IMG/VR virus record: IMGVR_UViG_3300030450_002462
Location: 1-21,992 of that record
Origin: a virus
Reading direction: 5' to 3' (one strand)
DNA: 21,992 nt
Shown here: piece by piece, positions 1-14,442 of the stretch
Numbering within the stretch: position 1 is the first letter of the stretch
How the letters are laid out: each line of letters starts with the position of its first letter
Notes under the pieces: generated by a model
Told to the model about the DNA's origin: nothing
The model's database searches: none
What the model saw: the letters and a program-made list of their open reading frames with translations, nothing else
Translations under genes and position numbers: made by a program

Positions 1-705
1 TTCGTCTGTTGGAACGCCATTGGAGAATCCAACGTGCATGGATGGTGTCATTCCACTTGTGATATTAGATAAATGAAACTGAGCTATTTCTAGTTCCATT
101 TGAATCCAATCTGTAGCCGCCACATAATCTGGTGCAAAACCATAGAATAATGCTGGGTTTTTATCTCTAATCATTAAGATTTGACTAGCTTGTGTTCTAT
201 CATCTGTATTGAAGGCAGCATAGGGTCTTGGTCTGTATTCTCCCTTTTTATACTTAGCCCAATTTGCACTATAATAATATGTGTCTATTTGACCGTCAAC
301 CATTTTACCAGAACGGATATATTGTGCTGGTATATGTTTCATTTTAGCAATCCTGCTTCTATCTCTTGACCAGATCACATTTACGTAACAACCGCCAAAT
401 AGCTTTAAATCCATTGCTAGGTCTTTTAATACATCATCATCAGAATTGTCTAATAATTCAGTTAAACGCAAATAAGACTCTTTTGTATCTGTATTATCAT
501 CTACATTTGTTGCTCCCAATCCCTCACCATATATCATTGCACCAATAGACTTAATTAATGCACCGTTAATGGCACTACCTAAGAAAAGGTCTAGTATATA
601 ATTTGGATATAAATTATCTTCACCGAAAGAAACCCAATCGTTTTTGGAATCTTCAACTAAATGGGGAATGTTATAATGTGATAATTTTACTAAGTTTAAA
701 TTCAT
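1..705 (-). CDS. Phage portal protein (N-terminal 235 residues, cut by window edge)
   Basis: The portal forms the dodecameric ring at one capsid vertex through which DNA is packaged and ejected, and to which the terminase and tail bind. The gene starts at ATG 705 and stays open to base 1, so the C-terminal half is missing. The protein begins MNLNLVKLSHYNIP. It contains a WVSFGEDNLYPNY segment, a FGGCYVNVIW strand, a cluster reading ADYVAATDW-like (APDYVAATDWIQMELEIA) and a HLSNITSGMTPSMHVGF stretch. This pattern (Y/W-rich strand, then PDY..A..WI..E, then FH..NI..G..PS) is what I associate with portals of Bacteroidota phages. It lies two bases after the preceding gene and is the last gene of the leftward late block seen here. 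Its position downstream of the capsid gene is unusual. The family call rests on remembered pattern, not a search. Confidence 0.85.
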   Translation of the reverse strand, partial: MNLNLVKLSHYNIPHLVEDSKNDWVSFGEDNLYPNYILDLFLGSAINGALIKSIGAMIYGEGLGATNVDDNTDTKESYLRLTELLDNSDDDVLKDLAMDLKLFGGCYVNVIWSRDRSRIAKMKHIPAQYIRSGKMVDGQIDTYYYSANWAKYKKGEYRPRPYAAFNTDDRTQASQILMIRDKNPALFYGFAPDYVAATDWIQMELEIAQFHLSNITSGMTPSMHVGFSNGVPTDE

Positions 706-707
706 AA

Positions 708-1160
708 TTAAATTGTTATATAAACGCTTTCTGTATCAGAATCGTTTGTTGTATATTCTGTGTATTCAACAGGCGGTACTTCACCGCTATTCATAGCCAT
801 ATTCATAAGTCCTGTATATAGTAGCGTCAATCCAGACGAATCCAAATTTGTGTTGGAAGTGTTTTGATATATAAAAGCATCATAAAAGCCTAAAGGAAAA
901 TCCGTGTTTCCCATAAATATATTTCCCGCTGTTAAATTTTCTGAACCAGAAGCTCGTACCGTATTATAAGTTAATTCAACGTACCTTTCTTGGCTTGTGT
1001 AACTTGCGGTAACAGTAAATTTTTTCACACTTTCTGTGAATTGACTTTTAAAATAAATCAATGGTCTATAATCTGTATTGGTCATTTTATCATACAAATC
1101 TAAGTATATTTTGTTTTGCAAGATTAGACCATCCGTATCATTTATTAAGGTTTGTATCAC
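708..1160 (-). CDS. Unknown phage protein between capsid and portal genes (150 aa)
   Basis: I do not recognise this 150-residue protein. It starts with GTG at 1160, which overlaps the TGA stop of the preceding small gene (GTGA), suggesting translational coupling. No better ATG is visible: the first internal one (Met-Thr-Asn-Thr) lies 25 codons in. The sequence is rich in Thr, Ser, Tyr and Asn with alternating hydrophobic residues, consistent with a soluble beta-rich protein. It has no signal peptide, membrane segment or cysteine. A structural or connector role is inferred only from its place between the tail-tube-like gene and the portal. The stop lies two bases before the portal start. Confidence 0.75.
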   Translation of the reverse strand: MIQTLINDTDGLILQNKIYLDLYDKMTNTDYRPLIYFKSQFTESVKKFTVTASYTSQERYVELTYNTVRASGSENLTAGNIFMGNTDFPLGFYDAFIYQNTSNTNLDSSGLTLLYTGLMNMAMNSGEVPPVEYTEYTTNDSDTESVYITI

Positions 1161-1312
1161 TTCTTTTTATTCTTAGGTTTTTCTTCTATAAATAGTGACT
1201 TTCTTACGCTTTCGTTTAGCTTTTTAATTTGATTCTGTGATAAATCATCTAATGGGATGTTGATATTATCAACGCTTTTACCTTCCCATTCTTTTTTAAG
1301 TTTCCAAGCCAT
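1157..1312 (-). CDS. Small basic protein upstream of the portal gene (51 aa)
   Basis: This short gene starts at ATG 1312 and stops with TGA at 1157-1159, inside the GTG start of the next gene. It encodes 51 residues beginning MAWKLKKEWEGKSVDNINIP and ending in a Lys-rich tail (EEKPKNKKK). A middle LDDLSQNQIKKLNESV segment looks helical. The 4-base stop/start overlap, the reading frame filling an otherwise empty gap, and an A/T-rich leader like those of neighbours support it as real. Small proteins of this form (a hydrophobic/basic start, a SQ.QI..L motif and a Lys tail) are common near head genes of related phages, but no function is known to me. Confidence 0.7.
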   Translation of the reverse strand: MAWKLKKEWEGKSVDNINIPLDDLSQNQIKKLNESVRKSLFIEEKPKNKKK

Positions 1313-1330
1313 AGTATTTTATTATAAATA

Positions 1331-1363
1331 TAAATATAAGATTATTGTTTTTTATTGTACAAA
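1331..1363 (-). promoter_or_regulatory. Candidate promoter for the portal gene group
   Basis: Read on the minus strand there is TTTG (bases 1363-1360), a 21-base spacer, then TATATTTA (1338-1331). This matches the Bacteroidota TTG-N(17-23)-TAnnTTTG pattern with one mismatch in the -7 box. It sits just after a terminator-like hairpin and about 20 bases before the ATG at 1312. The match is in very A/T-rich DNA, so chance is possible. Confidence 0.4.
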
Positions 1364-1386
1364 AAAAGGGGCAAAAAACCCCTTTT
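1361..1386 (-). terminator. Rho-independent terminator after the tail-tube-like gene
   Basis: Bases 1364-1371 and 1379-1386 form an 8-bp stem (AAAAGGGG / CCCCTTTT) with a 7-base loop. On the minus strand the stem is followed by a run of seven T. It lies 22 bases after the stop of the 1408-2001 gene. Because both flanks are A/T tracts it could also act on rightward transcripts. Confidence 0.75.
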
Positions 1387-1407
1387 CTTATATATATAGA
1401 GTAACGA

Positions 1408-2001
1408 TTAAGTTCCTACTGTGATTGTTAAATTAGCTTCGTCAGCTAATCCATCAAACGGGAATTTAGCTGTTCCAGCACCAGCACTAGCAGGTAACTG
1501 AATTAACGCGTTCTTTTCTTCTGCACCCCAATTAATAGTGTAGCCGTTTAAATCACCTTTAGCTGTTCCTGTAATAACAGTTCCGCCCGTTACGTAGCAA
1601 CCACCATCAATTCCTAATAAAAATACATTGTCCATAGAATCTTGTACAAATATCTGTGAACGTGAATATGCCATAAGTCTAAGCTCATTAGTCATATCAT
1701 GATCTATTTTTTGTAGTGTCACCGCTAATGTTTGCTCAAAAAATGTAGTTCCGTTAGCATTATCAGAATTTATATTAACTGTAAGACTAGAAAGATTCTG
1801 TACTAAGTCATATTTAAATACTTCTACAGTACCGCCGCAACAAGACCATGTAGCAAAACCTGCTGTAGTCATTTCTGTGGTGTTTATTGTAGCAACAGCA
1901 GAAACATTATTACTATAAGACTTAGCAATATATATAGCTTTTAAACCACCTATACTGTCTTTGCAATCTATTAATCGTCCTCTTGTAATATTACAAGCCA
2001 T
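1408..2001 (-). CDS. Structural protein, putative major tail tube protein (197 aa)
   Basis: The protein starts MACNITRGRLIDCKDSIGG. A short start of this kind (MAC.IT.G...DC.DS.GG.K.I) recurs in proteins next to capsid genes of Bacteroidota phages, and I take it as a virion structural family. The rest is rich in Thr, Gly, Val and Ala with few charges, as expected of a self-assembling beta-rich tube or decoration protein. Six cysteines are present, including a CC pair near residue 54. It has its own terminators on both sides (a hairpin after the capsid gene and another after its own stop), so it may be transcribed as a separate abundant message, which fits a major structural protein. Tail tube versus head decoration cannot be settled by eye. 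Confidence 0.6.
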   Translation of the reverse strand: MACNITRGRLIDCKDSIGGLKAIYIAKSYSNNVSAVATINTTEMTTAGFATWSCCGGTVEVFKYDLVQNLSSLTVNINSDNANGTTFFEQTLAVTLQKIDHDMTNELRLMAYSRSQIFVQDSMDNVFLLGIDGGCYVTGGTVITGTAKGDLNGYTINWGAEEKNALIQLPASAGAGTAKFPFDGLADEANLTITVGT

Positions 2002-2026
2002 AATTATTTATTTATTAAAAGTTAAT

Positions 2027-2052
2027 AAAAGGGCAGTATATTTCAACTGCCC
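2027..2052 (-). terminator. Terminator-like hairpin between capsid and tail-tube-like genes
   Basis: Bases 2031-2037 (GGGCAGT) pair perfectly with 2046-2052 (ACTGCCC) around an 8-base loop. On the minus strand the stem is followed by TTTTATT. It starts 14 bases after the capsid stop. It probably ends or attenuates the capsid message. It could also stabilise the 3' end of a processed transcript. Confidence 0.7.
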
Positions 2053-2066
2053 ATTTAAAGTATCTA

Positions 2067-3053
2067 TTAAGTCCAAACAGTTGAACCGTAAACACCGTCT
2101 GTACTAACCGCAGTTTGTACTCCTACAGCGAAGTTCATAACAACTCTTACGTTATCAGAACCATCATATTCGTAAGTTGGTATTAATCTAGCTTCAGTCC
2201 AATCAGTAGCTAGGTTAGTTCCAAATACTAAGTTTTCAGGATATGTAAATAAAATTACATCATTAAAAATCCCGGGACACCTGTAGATGGGGTAGCCAAA
2301 ATAAGTTGCTGTGTCAGCTTTTGCGTCAAATCCTAATCCAGAAATTTGTCCTTGATTAGAACCTGCAGAAGCTAATGCTTGAATGTAGAATCCATAAGTT
2401 TTGTTGTTCATATAGAAACCAACACCCGGCTTAGTAAGAATACCAGAAATATCTGAAGCAGCTTTGTCATAAACAGAAGCCATATCAGTTAAGATGTCTG
2501 AAGCTGCTAAAGCATCAGCGAAATCTACTTCGCTAAAGTCTTTACAAGCAGAAGCATCAGCACCCGCTTCGTCTTGCGTTCCGTCATCAGATAAGAAACC
2601 CGTTCCAAATGGAGCAGCTCCTTGCCATATTCCGATTTCTAATTGAGCAGCAGCTTTACCTGCAATTACTTGTAATAAGAAATCTCCAAAATTTTGTGGT
2701 AAGTTACCATTTCTGTCCATTCCTTGACCCATCCAAGTAGGGAAAATTGTACCTCTACAAATTTCTTCATTTACTTTAAGATCAGTCAAAGTAAGTACTT
2801 GTTCAGAAGTTGAAGTGTCATTTCCACTTGAGAAAGAACACGCAGCAGCAACAATAGGATTGCTAGAAGCAATGTTGTTAATTACTGCACTTTTCGTTAA
2901 ACCGTCTATTGTTCTAACGTAACCTTTAGCAACTGTGTCAGGACTTCTCAAGGCAGCAGTCACATAAGGCAGCGAATGTACACCTGCGTAGGTGTCACCG
3001 TTTACGGTAATATCAAATTCTCGCTTTTTTGATAATTGAATTTTATTTGCCAT
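2067..3053 (-). CDS. Major capsid protein, HK97-fold type (328 aa)
   Basis: This is the likely main shell protein. It follows the scaffold-like gene by eight bases and the prohead protease by one gene, the usual order protease-scaffold-capsid. The N-terminal part ends in a conserved-looking segment (residues about 85-115, with EEICRGTIFPTWMGQG). The C-terminal third (GYPIYRCPGIFNDVILFTYP, then NLVFGTNLATDW) looks like the HK97 P-domain/beta-hinge, where a 'nominal' strand precedes a fixed-length loop. It ends with the hydrophobic VVMNFAVGVQTAV and an aromatic tail VWT. The length of 328 is typical of small HK97-fold capsid proteins. There is a Gly/Ala/Ser-rich composition and almost no Lys in the second half. 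A terminator-like hairpin follows. Confidence 0.85.
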   Translation of the reverse strand: MANKIQLSKKREFDITVNGDTYAGVHSLPYVTAALRSPDTVAKGYVRTIDGLTKSAVINNIASSNPIVAAACSFSSGNDTSTSEQVLTLTDLKVNEEICRGTIFPTWMGQGMDRNGNLPQNFGDFLLQVIAGKAAAQLEIGIWQGAAPFGTGFLSDDGTQDEAGADASACKDFSEVDFADALAASDILTDMASVYDKAASDISGILTKPGVGFYMNNKTYGFYIQALASAGSNQGQISGLGFDAKADTATYFGYPIYRCPGIFNDVILFTYPENLVFGTNLATDWTEARLIPTYEYDGSDNVRVVMNFAVGVQTAVSTDGVYGSTVWT

Positions 3054-3061
3054 TTTTAAAT

Positions 3062-3742
3062 TTATTTTAAGTTATTAATGTAATATGCTGTCCTCTCATT
3101 TGGTGACAGTTTCGCTAAGTCAACAGTCGAGTTAAAGCCATCACCTTCTGGATTGTAATTTATACCCTCACTAGCAGGTTCACCACTTAATTCAACTACT
3201 TTACTTTTAAGTTCTTCTATTTGTGTCATAAGTTCTCCGATAAGCTCTTTTGACATTTCTGTTTTTTCTTCAACCTCTCCTTCAACTTCTTCAGATAATT
3301 CCGCAGACGCTTCTACTTTATCAGCTTTTAAATCAGCTACAGCATCTTCAAGGTTTTTGATTCTAATTTCCATCCCTTTCCAATCAGCAACATCAGCTTC
3401 TTCAGCTAATTCTTCTTCTTTAGATTCAACCTCTTCAGAAAGCTCTTCTTCAGATGCTTCAACATCTTCAGCTTCTTTTTCTTCGCCTAAGTCTAAGATT
3501 TCAGACGAATCACCGATTGTCATTTTATTACCATTTTCCATAGTGTAGCTTCCAGCAGCTAAAGGTTCAGCTTCGCCATCATCACCGATAGCAAAAACTT
3601 TAGACCCGATCATAAATTGCTCATCTTCTGTAGCAAGTGTACGACCGTCATCTAATTTCATTTCAGCGTAGAACTTTACGCTATAAGATTTAGGTTCATT
3701 TTTCATTTTTAAGATATTTAAAATTTTTTCTATTGTTCCCAT
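3062..3742 (-). CDS. Scaffold-like protein, Glu-rich coiled coil (226 aa)
   Basis: The gene lies directly between the prohead protease and the capsid gene, which is the position of the scaffold. I chose ATG 3742 (Met-Gly-Thr-Ile-Glu-Lys): the longer reading frame from 3820 would add 26 residues overlapping the protease gene, and the shared A/T leader element sits five bases before 3742. After a basic N-terminal helix and a short beta-like part, residues about 90-185 are extremely Glu-rich (EEELSEEVESKEEELAEE) with heptad-like spacing, then a helix (TQIEELKSKVVELSG). The last residues (LAKLSPNERTAYYINNLK) look like a conserved capsid-binding tail. Acidic helical composition fits a scaffold that is removed by the protease. 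Function is inferred from position and composition. Confidence 0.7.
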   Translation of the reverse strand: MGTIEKILNILKMKNEPKSYSVKFYAEMKLDDGRTLATEDEQFMIGSKVFAIGDDGEAEPLAAGSYTMENGNKMTIGDSSEILDLGEEKEAEDVEASEEELSEEVESKEEELAEEADVADWKGMEIRIKNLEDAVADLKADKVEASAELSEEVEGEVEEKTEMSKELIGELMTQIEELKSKVVELSGEPASEGINYNPEGDGFNSTVDLAKLSPNERTAYYINNLK

Positions 3743-3747
3743 AACAT

Positions 3748-3761
3748 TAATAAATATAAAG
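3748..3761 (-). promoter_or_regulatory. Recurring leader element CTTTATATTTATTA (copy at scaffold gene)
   Basis: Minus-strand CTTTATATTTATTA ends five bases before the ATG at 3742. Near-identical copies precede 4779 and 13251. It could be a translation signal replacing Shine-Dalgarno, or a nonstandard -7 box (TATATTTA). Confidence 0.45.
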
Positions 3762-3783
3762 GTGTTAAAATTGTTTATTTCTT

Positions 3784-4779
3784 TTAGCGTCTTACTGTTC
3801 TGTTCTTGATGGCAGCACATACTTTTGCTGCTGTTTCTTTGTTGCCGTATTCTTTGATTTGGTCACGCATACAATCATCCCAAGAGTATTTAAGCATAGC
3901 CTTTCTTTTAGCAAAAGCAACATATTCTAGCATCTTGTATTTTCTCTTTCTTTTCTTTCTTCCTGTCTTAGCGTACTCTTCACGTGTTGTTGCATCAGCG
4001 TGTGTGTCACAAGGCATATATAATTTCACGCCATCTACAGTATGTGTATGACTTCCAGAACAACCCTTGAACATCTCAGCATATAGATCCGCCTCTTCTT
4101 TTGTTCTAAATAATGGCTCACCATCTAATGCACCTACAGGATTTAACTCGTTTTGTAAAATAACATCTTTGATTTTTCCCATCATTACTTCGTCTGGACA
4201 ATCCTCACATACTTCGTCTAATATATCAACTTGTTTTGATTGCTCAATTAGCTTGTCCGTAAAATATCCTTCTATACTAAAACCCCTTACTTCTTTATTT
4301 TTAATAGCATCCCATATTTCGGGATTGTTTTCAGCACTCACTTGTACAAACCACGTACCGATTGGTAATTTACTGAATCCATACATATTTGATTTATCGT
4401 ATTTTGCATCTTCTTTAATCCATGATTCTACGACAGTTAATCCTTGTATTGGTTCTTTATGTTCAAGAGTGTGGTTATTGTTGTTTAAACTAGACATAAA
4501 TAGCTTCTGTGCTCTTTTAATGGTTTCTTTAGTGAAAAACACTTCATACTCTTCGTTAGTGTCTTTATCTAATCTAGGAATCTTCTTATCGGGAATAAGT
4601 ATTGCTCCTATTAATTGTTTTTTTTCTTCATCTGCTTTTGCAAGTGATAAAAAGTCGTTATTAAAAAAAACGAAATTTTCTTCTATGGCAGGAAATTTAA
4701 CAACGCTAATTGCATCCACTCCAAAGAAGTCTGCTGTTTCGTCTATAATTAATTCTATAAGTTTTTTCTTTTTGTCCAT
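3784..4779 (-). CDS. Prohead maturation protease, XkdF-like (Peptidase S78-2 type), with Cys/His cluster (331 aa)
   Basis: The protein probably cleaves the scaffold and capsid delta region during head maturation. Residues about 50-175 fit the XkdF-like serine protease domain: LIGAILIPDKKIPR, then a His in LEHKEPIQG (His107) followed by VVESWI, then WFVQVS, and a Ser in VRGFSIEGYF (Ser168). His and Ser at this spacing are the expected catalytic pair. After this come two additional parts. Residues 240-260 hold Cys240, His244, His246, Cys257 and His260 (GCSGSHTH ... YMPCDTH), which looks like a metal site. Residues 300-325 hold a small helical motif with Cys303 and Cys321 (DDCMRDQIKEYGNKE). A strongly basic linker (GRKKRKRKYK) separates them. 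It precedes the scaffold-like and capsid genes. It is longer than a bare protease domain because of these C-terminal parts. Confidence 0.8.
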   Translation of the reverse strand: MDKKKKLIELIIDETADFFGVDAISVVKFPAIEENFVFFNNDFLSLAKADEEKKQLIGAILIPDKKIPRLDKDTNEEYEVFFTKETIKRAQKLFMSSLNNNNHTLEHKEPIQGLTVVESWIKEDAKYDKSNMYGFSKLPIGTWFVQVSAENNPEIWDAIKNKEVRGFSIEGYFTDKLIEQSKQVDILDEVCEDCPDEVMMGKIKDVILQNELNPVGALDGEPLFRTKEEADLYAEMFKGCSGSHTHTVDGVKLYMPCDTHADATTREEYAKTGRKKRKRKYKMLEYVAFAKRKAMLKYSWDDCMRDQIKEYGNKETAAKVCAAIKNRTVRR

Positions 4780-4784
4780 AATAC

Positions 4785-4798
4785 TAATAAATATAAAG
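4785..4798 (-). promoter_or_regulatory. Recurring leader element CTTTATATTTATTA (copy at protease gene)
   Basis: Identical to the 3748-3761 copy over 14 bases and also five bases before its ATG (4779). The constant distance favours a role in translation initiation, though a TATATTTA -7 box is contained in it. Confidence 0.45.
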
Positions 4799-4811
4799 TT
4801 CTTTATTTTGT

Positions 4812-6314
4812 TTATAATGTAGCTTGTATTTCTAGTTCTTCTTGTAGTGCTTGTGCATCACTAATATCATTTTCCACTACATACGCTTGAACAGGTTGCG
4901 GAGCTCCATCTGGCAATTCAACTGATTCCATATTTGGTATTAAACCACCTATTCCCCCAGCACCCAAATCAGCAGCAGGAACACTTGGCGTTCCGCCACC
5001 CCCATTATCACCACCGGGTAATTTTTGATCTGTGATTGCTTTTACATTTGCAATACCTTGTGCCACTATTCCAGCAGCAGCAGCAATACCTAAAATCCCC
5101 CCTTGTGACAATGCTTTGTTTGCCGCAGCAAAGGTGTCTATTATAGCTAATGCTTTAGCAACCTTTTTTCCTTTTTTACTTTCTTTATCAATAAGCGAAC
5201 TAATACCCCCCAAAGCACCCCTAATAATACTTTGTTTCTCTTCTTGTGCTTTTTTGGTAGCTTCAACGTCTGTTTCTCCAGATTTCTGTGATTGCTCACC
5301 TGTATCTTTTAAACTTTCGTTATATTCATTTTGCAATGCTATAAGGTTCACTAATTGTTCTGATTTTTGACCTGTAATCCTTTCTTCTAAGTCAGCTAAG
5401 TCTGTTTGTGCATTTATTAATTGAACTTGTAAATCTATATTGTTTTTATCTAGAGATAATTCCATTTCAGCTAATGCTATTTTCTTTTCAGCTAACGCCT
5501 TTTCTTTTTCAAATTGTTCCTCTAATATTTTCCCTAATTTGTTATTTGCTTCTATTCGTTCTTCAAAAGTTAAATTAACATTATCTCTAATTTGCCTTTG
5601 TATTTCTGCATCTTTCTGGTATGTTAATTGTAGCTGTCTTTGATTTGCTTCAGCTAGTTTAACTTCGTTTCTCAGCTTCACCAAACTAGTAGCGTATTCA
5701 TTTGATTCAGTAACCGTATTTTTTAGCTCAACTACGGTAGTTTTTAGAGTTTCTACAAACCCCGTCTGTTCCACTTCTGTCATTCCTGTTGCTAATTGTA
5801 TCAATCCGGTTTTAGCCTCAGCAGCCCCTTCTTTTATCATAGCTAAATCTGTACTCCAAACCCCCTTCAGAACCTTTCCCAACGCCCCAGCAGCATCTAT
5901 TAATCCTTCAATTCTATCTACAAAATTTTGTTTTATTGTAATCCATAAATCTTTTACTGCTTGTTGGGGGTCTGTAAATGCTGACGTAAGTTTATTTCCA
6001 ACATCTATTGCTGAAGTTATTAATTTTTGAAACACAGCATTTATAGTTTCAGCGGCTATATTTAATTTGTCCATAACCACCTGATTCCGCCCTAGGGCTT
6101 CTTTAAGTCCAACAAGTGCTGAAATAATAAGTCCAATTCCTAATGCTTTAAAAGCCACACCAACACCAATAATACCCTGTCGCATAATGGTAAATCCATG
6201 CTTTGTTTTCGCCGCATTATCATCTACATTGCTAAGTCCATGCCCCAACTCATCAACTGTTTGCTTCGCATCTTTAGCATCTACTCTTAATTTTACTACA
6301 TATTCTTTTGCCAT
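4812..6314 (-). CDS. Tail tape measure protein (500 aa)
   Basis: Tape measure proteins set tail length and leave the tail ahead of the DNA. The N-terminus (MAKEYVVKLRVDAKDAKQTV) resembles the usual start of the family. A hydrophobic stretch at about residues 47-70 (IIGVGVAFKALGIGLIISAL) is followed by amphipathic helices. A long Glu/Gln/Lys-rich coiled coil covers about 200-345. Near the C-terminus come AKALAIIDTFAAANKALSQG, a second hydrophobic stretch (GILGIAAAAGIVAQGIA), a Gly-rich linker, and the ending QAYVVENDISDAQ, which I recognise from tape measures of Bacteroidota phages. At roughly 0.15 nm per residue, 500 residues would give a tail near 75 nm. It lies downstream of the large tail proteins and upstream of the head genes, the reverse of the common order. 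Confidence 0.85.
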   Translation of the reverse strand: MAKEYVVKLRVDAKDAKQTVDELGHGLSNVDDNAAKTKHGFTIMRQGIIGVGVAFKALGIGLIISALVGLKEALGRNQVVMDKLNIAAETINAVFQKLITSAIDVGNKLTSAFTDPQQAVKDLWITIKQNFVDRIEGLIDAAGALGKVLKGVWSTDLAMIKEGAAEAKTGLIQLATGMTEVEQTGFVETLKTTVVELKNTVTESNEYATSLVKLRNEVKLAEANQRQLQLTYQKDAEIQRQIRDNVNLTFEERIEANNKLGKILEEQFEKEKALAEKKIALAEMELSLDKNNIDLQVQLINAQTDLADLEERITGQKSEQLVNLIALQNEYNESLKDTGEQSQKSGETDVEATKKAQEEKQSIIRGALGGISSLIDKESKKGKKVAKALAIIDTFAAANKALSQGGILGIAAAAGIVAQGIANVKAITDQKLPGGDNGGGGTPSVPAADLGAGGIGGLIPNMESVELPDGAPQPVQAYVVENDISDAQALQEELEIQATL

Positions 6315-12028: not shown

Positions 12029-12519
12029 TATGAATTAGGGCTTACAGGTGCAATACAAAGGTTATTTTTATTATTTACATCAACACTAATTGCTGCACTC
12101 CATCCCGTTAAAAGGTTGTTAAATCTAGCTGTGAACGGTTCTGCTGTTATAGGCAACTCCAATACAACTTCACCATCAACCCAAGATGTTGAATATAAAG
12201 AGTGTTTAAATTCTGCAATGACATCTTTTAGTATATTTAGTGTTTCAGAATAAGCATCAACACGTCCAACCCTTTGTTTGTTTGGTTCGTCACCAACTTC
12301 TTCATTGATCATATCCATCACATATATTGTAAATGAGTAAGTTAGAACGCCTTGATTTATTGTAGCACTTCCGGGTTCAGCATATAGTATTGTATAATCA
12401 GTAGCCCCAAGTTTGTTTATATCAACTTCATCCATCATTCCCGAATGGAAGCTATTTATTTCATAATGCTTTTCAGCTATTGTTTCTAAATATCCTACTA
12501 CGTTTCTAAAAGTTATCAT
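12028..12519 (-). CDS. Putative tail terminator protein (163 aa)
   Basis: The protein (MITFRNVVGYLETIAEKHYE) has an N-terminal helix followed by strands ATDYTILYAEPGS and GVLTYSFTIYVMD, a helix-forming segment RVDAYSETLNILKDVIAEF, and an acidic strand VDGEVVLELPITA, ending LTGWSAAISVDV. A helix plus mixed sheet with a conserved W near the end is the layout of lambda gpU / T4 gp15-like tail terminators, which cap the tail tube. Its start overlaps by 14 bases the end of the tail chaperone frameshift extension. Position next to the chaperone and a tail-completion-like gene fits. Family assignment is by layout only. Confidence 0.5.
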   Translation of the reverse strand: MITFRNVVGYLETIAEKHYEINSFHSGMMDEVDINKLGATDYTILYAEPGSATINQGVLTYSFTIYVMDMINEEVGDEPNKQRVGRVDAYSETLNILKDVIAEFKHSLYSTSWVDGEVVLELPITAEPFTARFNNLLTGWSAAISVDVNNKNNLCIAPVSPNS

Positions 12520-12748
12520 AGTTACTTTTTTGTTTATTATTATAATCTTGAGAATATGCCAAATATGTTAACACTTCTAAGATTGGTAAATTTGTTATTT
12601 TATCAATATCCAATATAGATGATGACATTCCATATAGAACATTATACCATCCCCACTTGGATTGCATTGTTACGCCTTTTGCGGTTTCATTTCCTGTGCT
12701 TGTAAAGATTGCAGCGAAGTCCTTACTAATACGTTTCCTAAAGTCAAA
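12506..12748 (-). CDS. Tail assembly chaperone, -1 frameshift extension (T-like part, 80 residues)
   Basis: This reading frame is open from well upstream of the end of the 193-residue chaperone gene (-1 relative to it) down to a TAG at 12506. If the ribosome slips back one base on the T run at 12746-12754, 80 residues (Phe-Asp-Phe-Arg-Lys-Arg...) are added after residue 168, giving a 248-residue fusion. The extension ends with SKWGWYNVLYGMSSSILDID, then KITNLPILEVLTYLAYSQD. This Trp-rich helix and 'D..K...LP..E.L.YL.Y' pattern is the form I expect of the T part of G/GT-type chaperones. An independent 53-residue product from ATG 12667, two bases after the upstream stop, is the alternative. Without either, the 150 bases here would be empty. 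Confidence 0.7.
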   Translation of the reverse strand, partial: FDFRKRISKDFAAIFTSTGNETAKGVTMQSKWGWYNVLYGMSSSILDIDKITNLPILEVLTYLAYSQDYNNKQKSNYDNF

Positions 12749-13251
12749 AAAAAACCTAAGCTCGATAATGCTATATTCATTGGGCAGTCCTTAAATAGTT
12801 CTTCTTTGAACTCATCTGGATTGTAGGGCTCAATGGCGTATCTTTCATTTACTTTGTTTGTAATTTTCCTATATAAAATACTCATTATAATATGTAGGTT
12901 TTCAACAGGTTCTTTACAATATGTTTCCAAATCTATATATTCTCCTGTTGTTAATTTTGAAAGATTAGGACAAAAACCGTATTCTATCTTTTTAAAAACA
13001 AATGTCTTTTTAAAATCATCTTGTGCTGGTTCAGTATCAATCATTCCTTTAATGATATTCATAATGTCCATTAAGTCAGTATAAGCCATTTTCTTTACAA
13101 CAAATGGTGTTGTATTGCATAATAATGCTATGCTCTTAATCACCTTGTTTTTATCACTTCCCTTTCCTTCTTGGATTTTGACATATCTTTGATATGTTCC
13201 TATTGTTATATCAGACCAATTATCTGGTATGCTTAATTTGACCTCTTTCAT
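12670..13251 (-). CDS. Tail assembly chaperone, G-like short form (193 aa)
   Basis: Tail chaperones coat the tape measure during tail assembly. This protein starts MKEVKLSIPDNWSDITIGTY, followed by QRYVKIQEGKGSDKN. This start (K...IPD.W.DIT.G.Y..Y) is typical of tail chaperone-like proteins in Bacteroidota phages. Later regions are helical (TDLMDIMNIIKGMID) with a strand pair (FVFKKIEYGF). Near its end the gene carries nine T in a row, read GGT TTT TTT TTG, with an open -1 frame beyond (see the extension). After the run it ends LTLGNVLVRTSLQSLQAQEM-KPQKA. A leader element like those at the protease and scaffold genes sits three bases before its ATG. It lies between the terminase and tail-terminator-like genes. 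Confidence 0.7.
   Translation of the reverse strand: MKEVKLSIPDNWSDITIGTYQRYVKIQEGKGSDKNKVIKSIALLCNTTPFVVKKMAYTDLMDIMNIIKGMIDTEPAQDDFKKTFVFKKIEYGFCPNLSKLTTGEYIDLETYCKEPVENLHIIMSILYRKITNKVNERYAIEPYNPDEFKEELFKDCPMNIALSSLGFFLTLGNVLVRTSLQSLQAQEMKPQKA
12746..12754 (-). promoter_or_regulatory. Candidate -1 ribosomal frameshift site (T9 run)
   Basis: The minus strand has nine T after GG, with 0-frame codons GGT TTT TTT TTG. T TTT TTT is a perfect X XXY YYZ heptamer, allowing both Phe tRNAs to re-pair after slipping back one base. RNA polymerase slippage on T9 could give the same protein. I saw no obvious downstream pseudoknot by eye. Confidence 0.65.
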
Positions 13252-13284: not shown

Positions 13285-14442
13285 TTACAATATATAATAC
13301 TTACCACTATGATTCACCGATAGCTTATTTAAACACAAATAACGTGTTGCGTCAATTAAGTGGTCGTTAATCTTTACAGGCGTATTTAACACATCACCAT
13401 TTTTATCTGTAGCCCATTTATAAGACCTAAATTCTTTTATAGCATTTAAACTGTCCTTTGTTATATGTAGTTTGTATCTACGCATAATATCTATTCCTAA
13501 ATGTATTCCTGCACCTTTCTTAGCTGGTTTTATGTTAAAGCCCTGTCTATATATTTCTTCTATTGTTTTAGGTTCTGCTGAATCACCTATTATTTCTGAT
13601 TGTCTATCTATTCTAAATTCACGTAGCTTATTAGCTAGATCAGTATTAGTTAATCTCTTTTCATACAGCATTTCTTTAATGTATAAATTGTCATCAGATT
13701 GATATACAGCAACTAAAGCAGAAGGTGAATTAGTAAATCCAAAATCAAGACCATAACCAATTAATCTGCCCTGCACCTCATCAACTAAATTAAAGTTCCT
13801 AAATATCATTGTTTGAACAGAACCTATTTCACCAAGTCCATACACCTGCCAATAATCTGGGTCTAGTTCTTTTAGTCTTTCTATTTCTGCTATTGTATCT
13901 TCGTCTAAAAATGGATTGGCTAAATATGTTGATTTAAAAAATGTGCAATCATCTCTAGTTATTACTTTATCATATATCCAGCTATACGGATCAGAAGGGT
14001 TGTAATCTAAATATATTTGTTCTGTTGTTCTTAGAATTAGCTGCTGCCAATCTTCATAAGCAAATTCATTAGCCTCATTTAGCCATAGATAATTTCTCTT
14101 ACGACCACGGATTTTCTGACTTTGATCTACGCTAATAAATTCTAATAAATTGCCATTTAATGTATATGATAATTCTGATTTATTGTGATTAGCTTCATTA
14201 TATAATTCTAGTTCTTTTAAGATAGAAATTACGTCACGGTAGGCTGTGCCTTTAAGGGCTGGGAGTGTCTTTCTACATATTGTAAACACCTTTCCTGTTT
14301 CTTCTAAGCATTTAACAATAAACAACTGACACAGCGAATAAGTCTTACTAGAACGCGTACCCCCCTGTAAGCACGTTATTCTAGTATCTGACTTATACGC
14401 CCTGTGAAATACATTTGTGCATTTAATCTTTCCCTGTGTCAA
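13285..14442 (-). CDS. terL: Terminase large subunit (385 aa)
   Basis: This is the DNA-packaging motor: an ATPase that pumps DNA into the prohead and a nuclease that cuts it. The Walker A is at residues 26-34 (QGGTRSSKT, the terminase variant with GGTRSSKT), and the Walker B with catalytic Glu is at 118-125 (LWLNEANE). The C-terminal RNase H-like nuclease has Asp233 in YGLDFGF, Asp287 in GDSAEPKT and Asp364 in DHLIDATRY. All expected key residues are present and 385 residues is a normal short TerL. The start at ATG 14442 overlaps the small-subunit gene by 20 bases. TerL of this compact kind (with 'GDSAEPK' and 'L.W.NE.NE') is common in phages with 'PBSX/Sf6-like' terminases, but the packaging mode (cos or pac) cannot be read from here. 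Confidence 0.95.
   Translation of the reverse strand: MTQGKIKCTNVFHRAYKSDTRITCLQGGTRSSKTYSLCQLFIVKCLEETGKVFTICRKTLPALKGTAYRDVISILKELELYNEANHNKSELSYTLNGNLLEFISVDQSQKIRGRKRNYLWLNEANEFAYEDWQQLILRTTEQIYLDYNPSDPYSWIYDKVITRDDCTFFKSTYLANPFLDEDTIAEIERLKELDPDYWQVYGLGEIGSVQTMIFRNFNLVDEVQGRLIGYGLDFGFTNSPSALVAVYQSDDNLYIKEMLYEKRLTNTDLANKLREFRIDRQSEIIGDSAEPKTIEEIYRQGFNIKPAKKGAGIHLGIDIMRRYKLHITKDSLNAIKEFRSYKWATDKNGDVLNTPVKINDHLIDATRYLCLNKLSVNHSGKYYIL

Follow-up and report, generated by a model that had tools for sequence, protein, structure and literature searches.

A T9 run as a probable site of programmed -1 recoding in a tail-assembly-chaperone-like gene of long-tailed phages

The viral DNA analyzed here (the window: 21,992 nucleotides, IMG/VR record IMGVR_UViG_3300030450_002462) carries a gene with nine consecutive Ts near its end, beyond which the -1 frame stays open, and this raises two questions: whether part of the products of the gene enter the -1 frame at the run, and whether the ribosome or RNA polymerase would be the agent of the frame change. 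A first-pass annotation of the window had proposed a programmed -1 frameshift in a tail chaperone gene of the lambda gpG/gpGT type, with polymerase slippage as an alternative route to the same protein. Judging from the relatives of the gene, we consider it quite probable that programmed -1 recoding takes place at this locus, and that the gene, which resembles those of tail assembly chaperones, belongs to a long-tailed phage with a probable host among the Bacteroidota. Most products would then end at 12670 as a G-like protein of 193 aa, while a minority would switch to the -1 frame at the T9 and yield a GT-like fusion of 248 aa with a conserved C-terminal domain. That the fusion is produced, that the ratio of the G-like protein to the fusion matters for tail assembly, and which agent acts at the run are all points that we infer.

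Two frames at the T9 run

The features of the site are collected in Table 1. What the first-pass annotation had read from the letters was reproduced, namely the nine Ts at 12754-12746 of the minus strand, the heptamer T_TTT_TTT in the right phase, and a -1 frame that runs for 80 codons without a stop, ends at 12506 and gives a fusion of 168 + 80 = 248 residues when read through; it had missed T_TTT_TTG, which is also in phase. From the base composition, the chance of an 80-codon open frame is about 0.0008. This T9 is the only A/T run of at least nine in the 22-kb window, and the TGA directly after it would end any product of a one-U loss or a two-U gain.

Table 1. Features of the recoded locus and its surroundings (coordinates of the window)
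Feature	Coordinates	Strand	Remarks
0-frame gene, G-like product	12670..13251	minus	193 aa + TAA; PHROG 32199, E 2.2e-10, function not known
T9 run (A9 on + strand), probable recoding site	12746..12754	minus	0-frame GGT TTT TTT TTG, codons 166-169
In-phase heptamer T_TTT_TTT	12748..12754	minus	sequence
Second in-phase heptamer T_TTT_TTG	12745..12751	minus	sequence
-1 frame extension, putative T-like domain	12506..12748	minus	80 codons + TAG (12508-12506); conserved as protein
KWGWY motif in -1 domain	12644..12658	minus	WGWY invariant in 21-sequence alignment
Internal ATG of -1 frame	12665..12667	minus	CTA or TTA in 8 relatives; not required start
+1-frame TGA directly after run	12744..12746	minus	sequence
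Terminase large subunit, immediately upstream	13285..14442	minus	PF04466 1.1e-27; phrog_2 3.1e-42
Next gene, 163 aa	12028..12519	minus	starts 14 nt inside -1 ORF; sequence
Short tape-measure-like protein, 500 aa	4812..6314	minus	about 6 kb downstream; phrog_21537 1.1e-21, phrog_3336 1e-10

Both frames of the overlap are under coding selection

A search for near relatives yielded 80 viral contigs, from which 75 loci were scored, 3 of them ending before the site; the 0-frame gene in the relatives is 65-99% identical. Exactly nine Ts in the same phase were found in every scored locus that reaches the site (the 75 less these 3), and in all contigs long enough to show it the -1 frame stays open over at least 80 codons and encodes the same peptide. 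The T9 recurs in two independent assemblies (L002 and L003, 99% identical), showing that it is not a sequencing error. Homopolymers are prone to error, and a mistake in sequencing or assembly could split one gene into two, but the run length and the frame relation are identical in hundreds of assemblies and in two isolate genomes, with both frames conserved; the relatives thus refute this explanation, whose probability is practically nil.

Coding selection was measured on 34 clusters, each with its representative, over the 25 codons from the run to the 0-frame stop. Before the run, the entropy at 0-frame positions 1/2/3 was 0.38/0.27/0.96, whereas in the overlap it was 0.37/0.76/0.62, so that the peak falls on the wobble position of the -1 frame. 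No representative (0/34) had a -1 stop in the overlap, as against about 29 expected when synonymous 0-frame codons were redrawn; in every one of the 500 runs of this procedure at least 23 of the 34 acquired such a stop. The -1 identity in the overlap was 0.67 versus 0.36, and past the 0-frame stop 73% of the codon differences were synonymous in the -1 frame. The overlap therefore consists of two frames that are both under coding selection.

The selected stretch of the overlap lies upstream of the ATG at 12667, and this, together with the loss of that ATG in 8 relatives, indicates that translation of the -1 frame continues from the first gene. The -1 domain could otherwise be a separate small gene (53 aa) started at this ATG by translational coupling, as might be thought from its position 2 nt past the 0-frame TAA in this clade and from the annotation of gp41 and gp39 in the cultured phages P12024L and P12024S described below. 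In the 8 relatives, however, a separate start is rejected because CTA or TTA stands in its place; in 91 of 201 distinct contexts no ATG, GTG or TTG precedes the W motif; and the -1 frame is already coding ahead of the ATG. The relatives rule out a separately started second gene, which we regard as very improbable.

When the relatives were aligned as the first-pass annotation had proposed, the T run and both frames were kept in all of those reaching the site, and none of the observations it had named as telling against the frameshift (loss of the run, -1 stops before 12667, a second gene always started on its own) was made in any of them. The relatives and the overlap statistics strongly support the predicted recoding into the -1 frame, and the T9 is almost certainly a real -1 recoding site.

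Distant relatives, cultured phages and probable function

A search with the -1 domain led to the cultured Nonlabens (Persicivirga) phage P12024L, in which gp40 and gp41, directly after the terminase, are homologous to both parts of the gene (hhalign 98.5% and 97.0%). Here the T9 lies inside the 0-frame gene and the second part is in the -1 frame, and gp38/gp39 of phage P12024S have the same layout. The pairs resemble the gene of the window in their place after the terminase, the T9, the -1 frame and the W motif; they differ in that the identity is about 27%, that the run is shifted by one base against the codon register, and that they are annotated as two separate hypothetical proteins. In both P12024L (L082, NC_018272.1 23946-24640) and P12024S (L385, NC_018271.1) the recoded gene thus appears mis-split into two hypothetical proteins. 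Many further viral contigs with the gene came from profile searches, and a DNA-pattern search added three contigs that belong to Winogradskyella and Bacteroidetes MAGs; because of these contigs and the two cultured phages, the hosts are probably Bacteroidota. A genome scan with the first alignment profile (A1) gave no match.

All 365 loci with the W motif (201 distinct contexts) have the domain in the -1 frame and a run of T9 or T10, and none has the two parts fused in frame. The 0-frame ORF overlaps the -1 domain by more than 55 codons in 103 of the 201 contexts. The motif itself varies (KWSWY in P12024S, KWKSY in the odd case L233, where TAC TTT TTT TTT GTT again contains exactly nine Ts), and an HMM search with the first part, which is independent of the motif, returned 195 contexts extending to the site, every one with T9 or T10. 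In all 201 contexts a stop interrupts the +1 frame within 0-6 codons; dual coding may itself impose these early stops. The two parts are held apart in PHROG 32199, which matches the G-like part, and PHROG 38404, which matches the -1 domain weakly (E 0.017), both of function not known and with no record of recoding.

As to function, of 29 family members 9 give a weak match to phrog_166 'tail protein' (best E 0.0011) and one gives a weak match to Phage_TAC_7 (E 0.11). The AlphaFold model of a homologue (pLDDT 82.5) retrieved by Foldseek many uncharacterised phage proteins and, as a weaker match, a protein annotated as tail assembly chaperone (prob 0.99, E 0.033); the PDB, searched by sequence and by fold, yielded no match, and the model of the -1 domain is of low confidence (pLDDT 61.6). 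A gene of Flavobacterium phage 6H gave a weak fold match; it has no T9, and a -1 stop follows at once after T_TTT_TTC. This 6H gene (L381 10927-10040, minus) is followed by 300 nt of unannotated sequence with open frames, possibly another frame change or a sequence error.

Of the tail chaperone assignment made by the first-pass annotation, the architecture and the weak similarity leave the G/GT type plausible, whereas the expected position before the tape measure was not found. Recoding might be real in a protein of another kind, such as a head-tail connector or other assembly factor, as would suit a gene that follows the terminase far from the tape measure in a family with no assigned function; against this stand the two-product layout of G/GT and the weak matches to tail proteins and to a protein annotated as a chaperone. 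We consider such another role improbable and a tail-chaperone role likely. The next gene (12519-12028), called tail-terminator-like in the first-pass annotation, matched no PHROG or Pfam family.

Several other features of the window were observed. It is a 22-kb fragment (relatives reach about 29-32 kb) in which a portal-like ORF runs off the end, and the gene order in 1-6314 looks unusual, with tape measure, protease, capsid-like and portal-like genes after the tail genes. The ORF listed at 3062-3820 shares 37 nt with the protease-like gene (3784-4779), and an internal ATG is probably where it really starts. Upstream of the terminase (18304-17186), a VRR-NUC-like ORF of 115 aa and a sigma-factor-like ORF resemble, by eye, the VRR-NUC and sigma-70 region 2 genes of P12024L (L082 2688-3493).

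The agent of the frame change and known systems

In the family as a whole, the two TTT codons are flanked by G/A/S with L or F, by V/L/I with Y/W or L, or by F with Y/W or V, and in these three registers the flanking codon pairs always bring the total to 9 or 10 Ts, never to 7 or 8. A slippery heptamer would need 7 (phase 2), 8 (phase 1) or 9 (phase 0) Ts, whereas the observed floor is 9 throughout. When we looked in IMG/VR for the commonest context, 79 of 80 examined places with the T9 version were this gene, as against 0 of 56 places with the T8 version. The coding strand of other ORFs (375 non-redundant ORFs, 273 kb) contained no T run of at least nine, versus 12.7 expected from codon shuffles, while T8 was only mildly low and in-phase T7/T8 were not specially avoided. 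Runs of at least nine As in coding strands were also depleted (18 versus about 58 expected), more weakly than those of T. It seems from these patterns that the conserved feature is a run length of at least nine Ts rather than the register. When 80 representatives were placed on a tree, only 2-3 changes of codon state were seen, and because of so few changes the nine-T rule is without statistical proof independent of descent; dual protein constraint could also explain much of the run length.

Two readings of the agent have to be weighed. Lambda G/GT and P2 E/E' are both cases of ribosomal -1 slippage, and the ribosome alone could slip here at U_UUU_UUU, or at U_UUU_UUG in this clade. In-phase heptamers are present in all members (every T9 necessarily holds an in-phase T_TTT_TTT), there are tail-chaperone precedents for ribosomal frameshifting (PMC5009743), and HK97-like cases gave 6-7% frameshifting in reporter tests (PMC3711429). 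However, 7 or 8 Ts would suffice in two of the registers and yet the minimum is 9 in all, in-phase T7/T8 show no particular avoidance in other genes, and there is no signal of downstream structure: among the 80 representatives the mean z against mononucleotide shuffles was +0.28 downstream and +0.16 upstream, with no sign of the downstream stem-loop or pseudoknot of a structure-stimulated ribosomal -1 frameshift. Nor was an upstream stimulator detected, the synonymous codons just before the run varying freely. We regard slippage by the ribosome alone as a tentative possibility.

RNA polymerase alone could instead insert one additional U into some of the transcripts, fusing the frames for a ribosome that reads normally. 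Slippage on runs of 9 As or 9 Ts is documented (PMC5009743), in many bacterial genomes selection against polymerase slippage becomes visible at a run length of nine nucleotides (PMC1088944), and the floor of nine whatever the register, the avoidance of such runs elsewhere and the bacterial A9/T9 precedents (PMC1088944, PMC5009743) agree with this; on the other side, the independent changes on the tree are too few for a test and the runs also retain ribosomal heptamers. Polymerase slippage as the sole agent is a serious candidate, if somewhat short of an even chance. The run length kept over the register, the absence of T>=9 elsewhere and the lack of RNA structure suggest polymerase slippage, favoured only slightly because of the few changes on the tree and the dual protein constraint, so that we lean a little towards RNA polymerase adding one U in U9, either as the sole agent or in combination with ribosomal -1 slippage at U_UUU_UUU. 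The frame change predicted by the first-pass annotation stands on the sequence comparisons, and its polymerase alternative fits the rule of at least nine Ts at least as well as the ribosome does. Whether this widespread family of Bacteroidota phages sets its tail-chaperone ratio by polymerase slippage on an invariant U9/U10 tract instead of ribosomal frameshifting is, in our estimate, evenly balanced.

Like lambda gpG/gpGT (PMC5009743), the gene pair would give a short product and a minor -1 extended product with a common N-terminus, from a slip site located late in the first ORF, within a late structural gene block, and it has in-phase slippery sequences (T_TTT_TTT and T_TTT_TTG). It differs from lambda in that the site of this family is an invariant run of at least nine Ts, in that many members have an overlap of up to 86 codons between the 0-frame tail and the -1 domain, in that no clear sequence homology to lambda G/T emerged, and in that the pair is not directly upstream of the tape measure, with several genes and about 6 kb between. 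By analogy, the pair is one that would work like G/GT; we do not place it in the lambda G/GT family, since its similarity to known chaperones is weak and its position relative to the tape measure does not agree.

The other comparison is with programmed transcriptional realignment at A9/T9 runs, as in Thermus dnaX, Shigella mxiE and IS elements (PMC1088944). The family shares with these systems the run of nine, kept by selection as T9 or T10 throughout (realignment systems keep A/T runs of 8-9 or more), a longer product that an extra mRNA nucleotide would yield, and a stop close by in the other frame, and its run is at least nine in all three registers, but with only the 2-3 tree changes; unlike these systems, its tracts also hold ribosomal heptamers. 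In the literature that we covered, which is incomplete, no account of this family or of tail chaperones made by slippage was found. The analysis suggests what a large group of unannotated phage genes (PHROG 32199/38404) probably does and points to a fusion product hidden in it; the group includes the wrongly split pairs of two cultured phages. It also provides a clean natural test case of whether tail-chaperone recoding must be ribosomal; if the polymerase reading is true, the same assembly logic would be served by a different machine.
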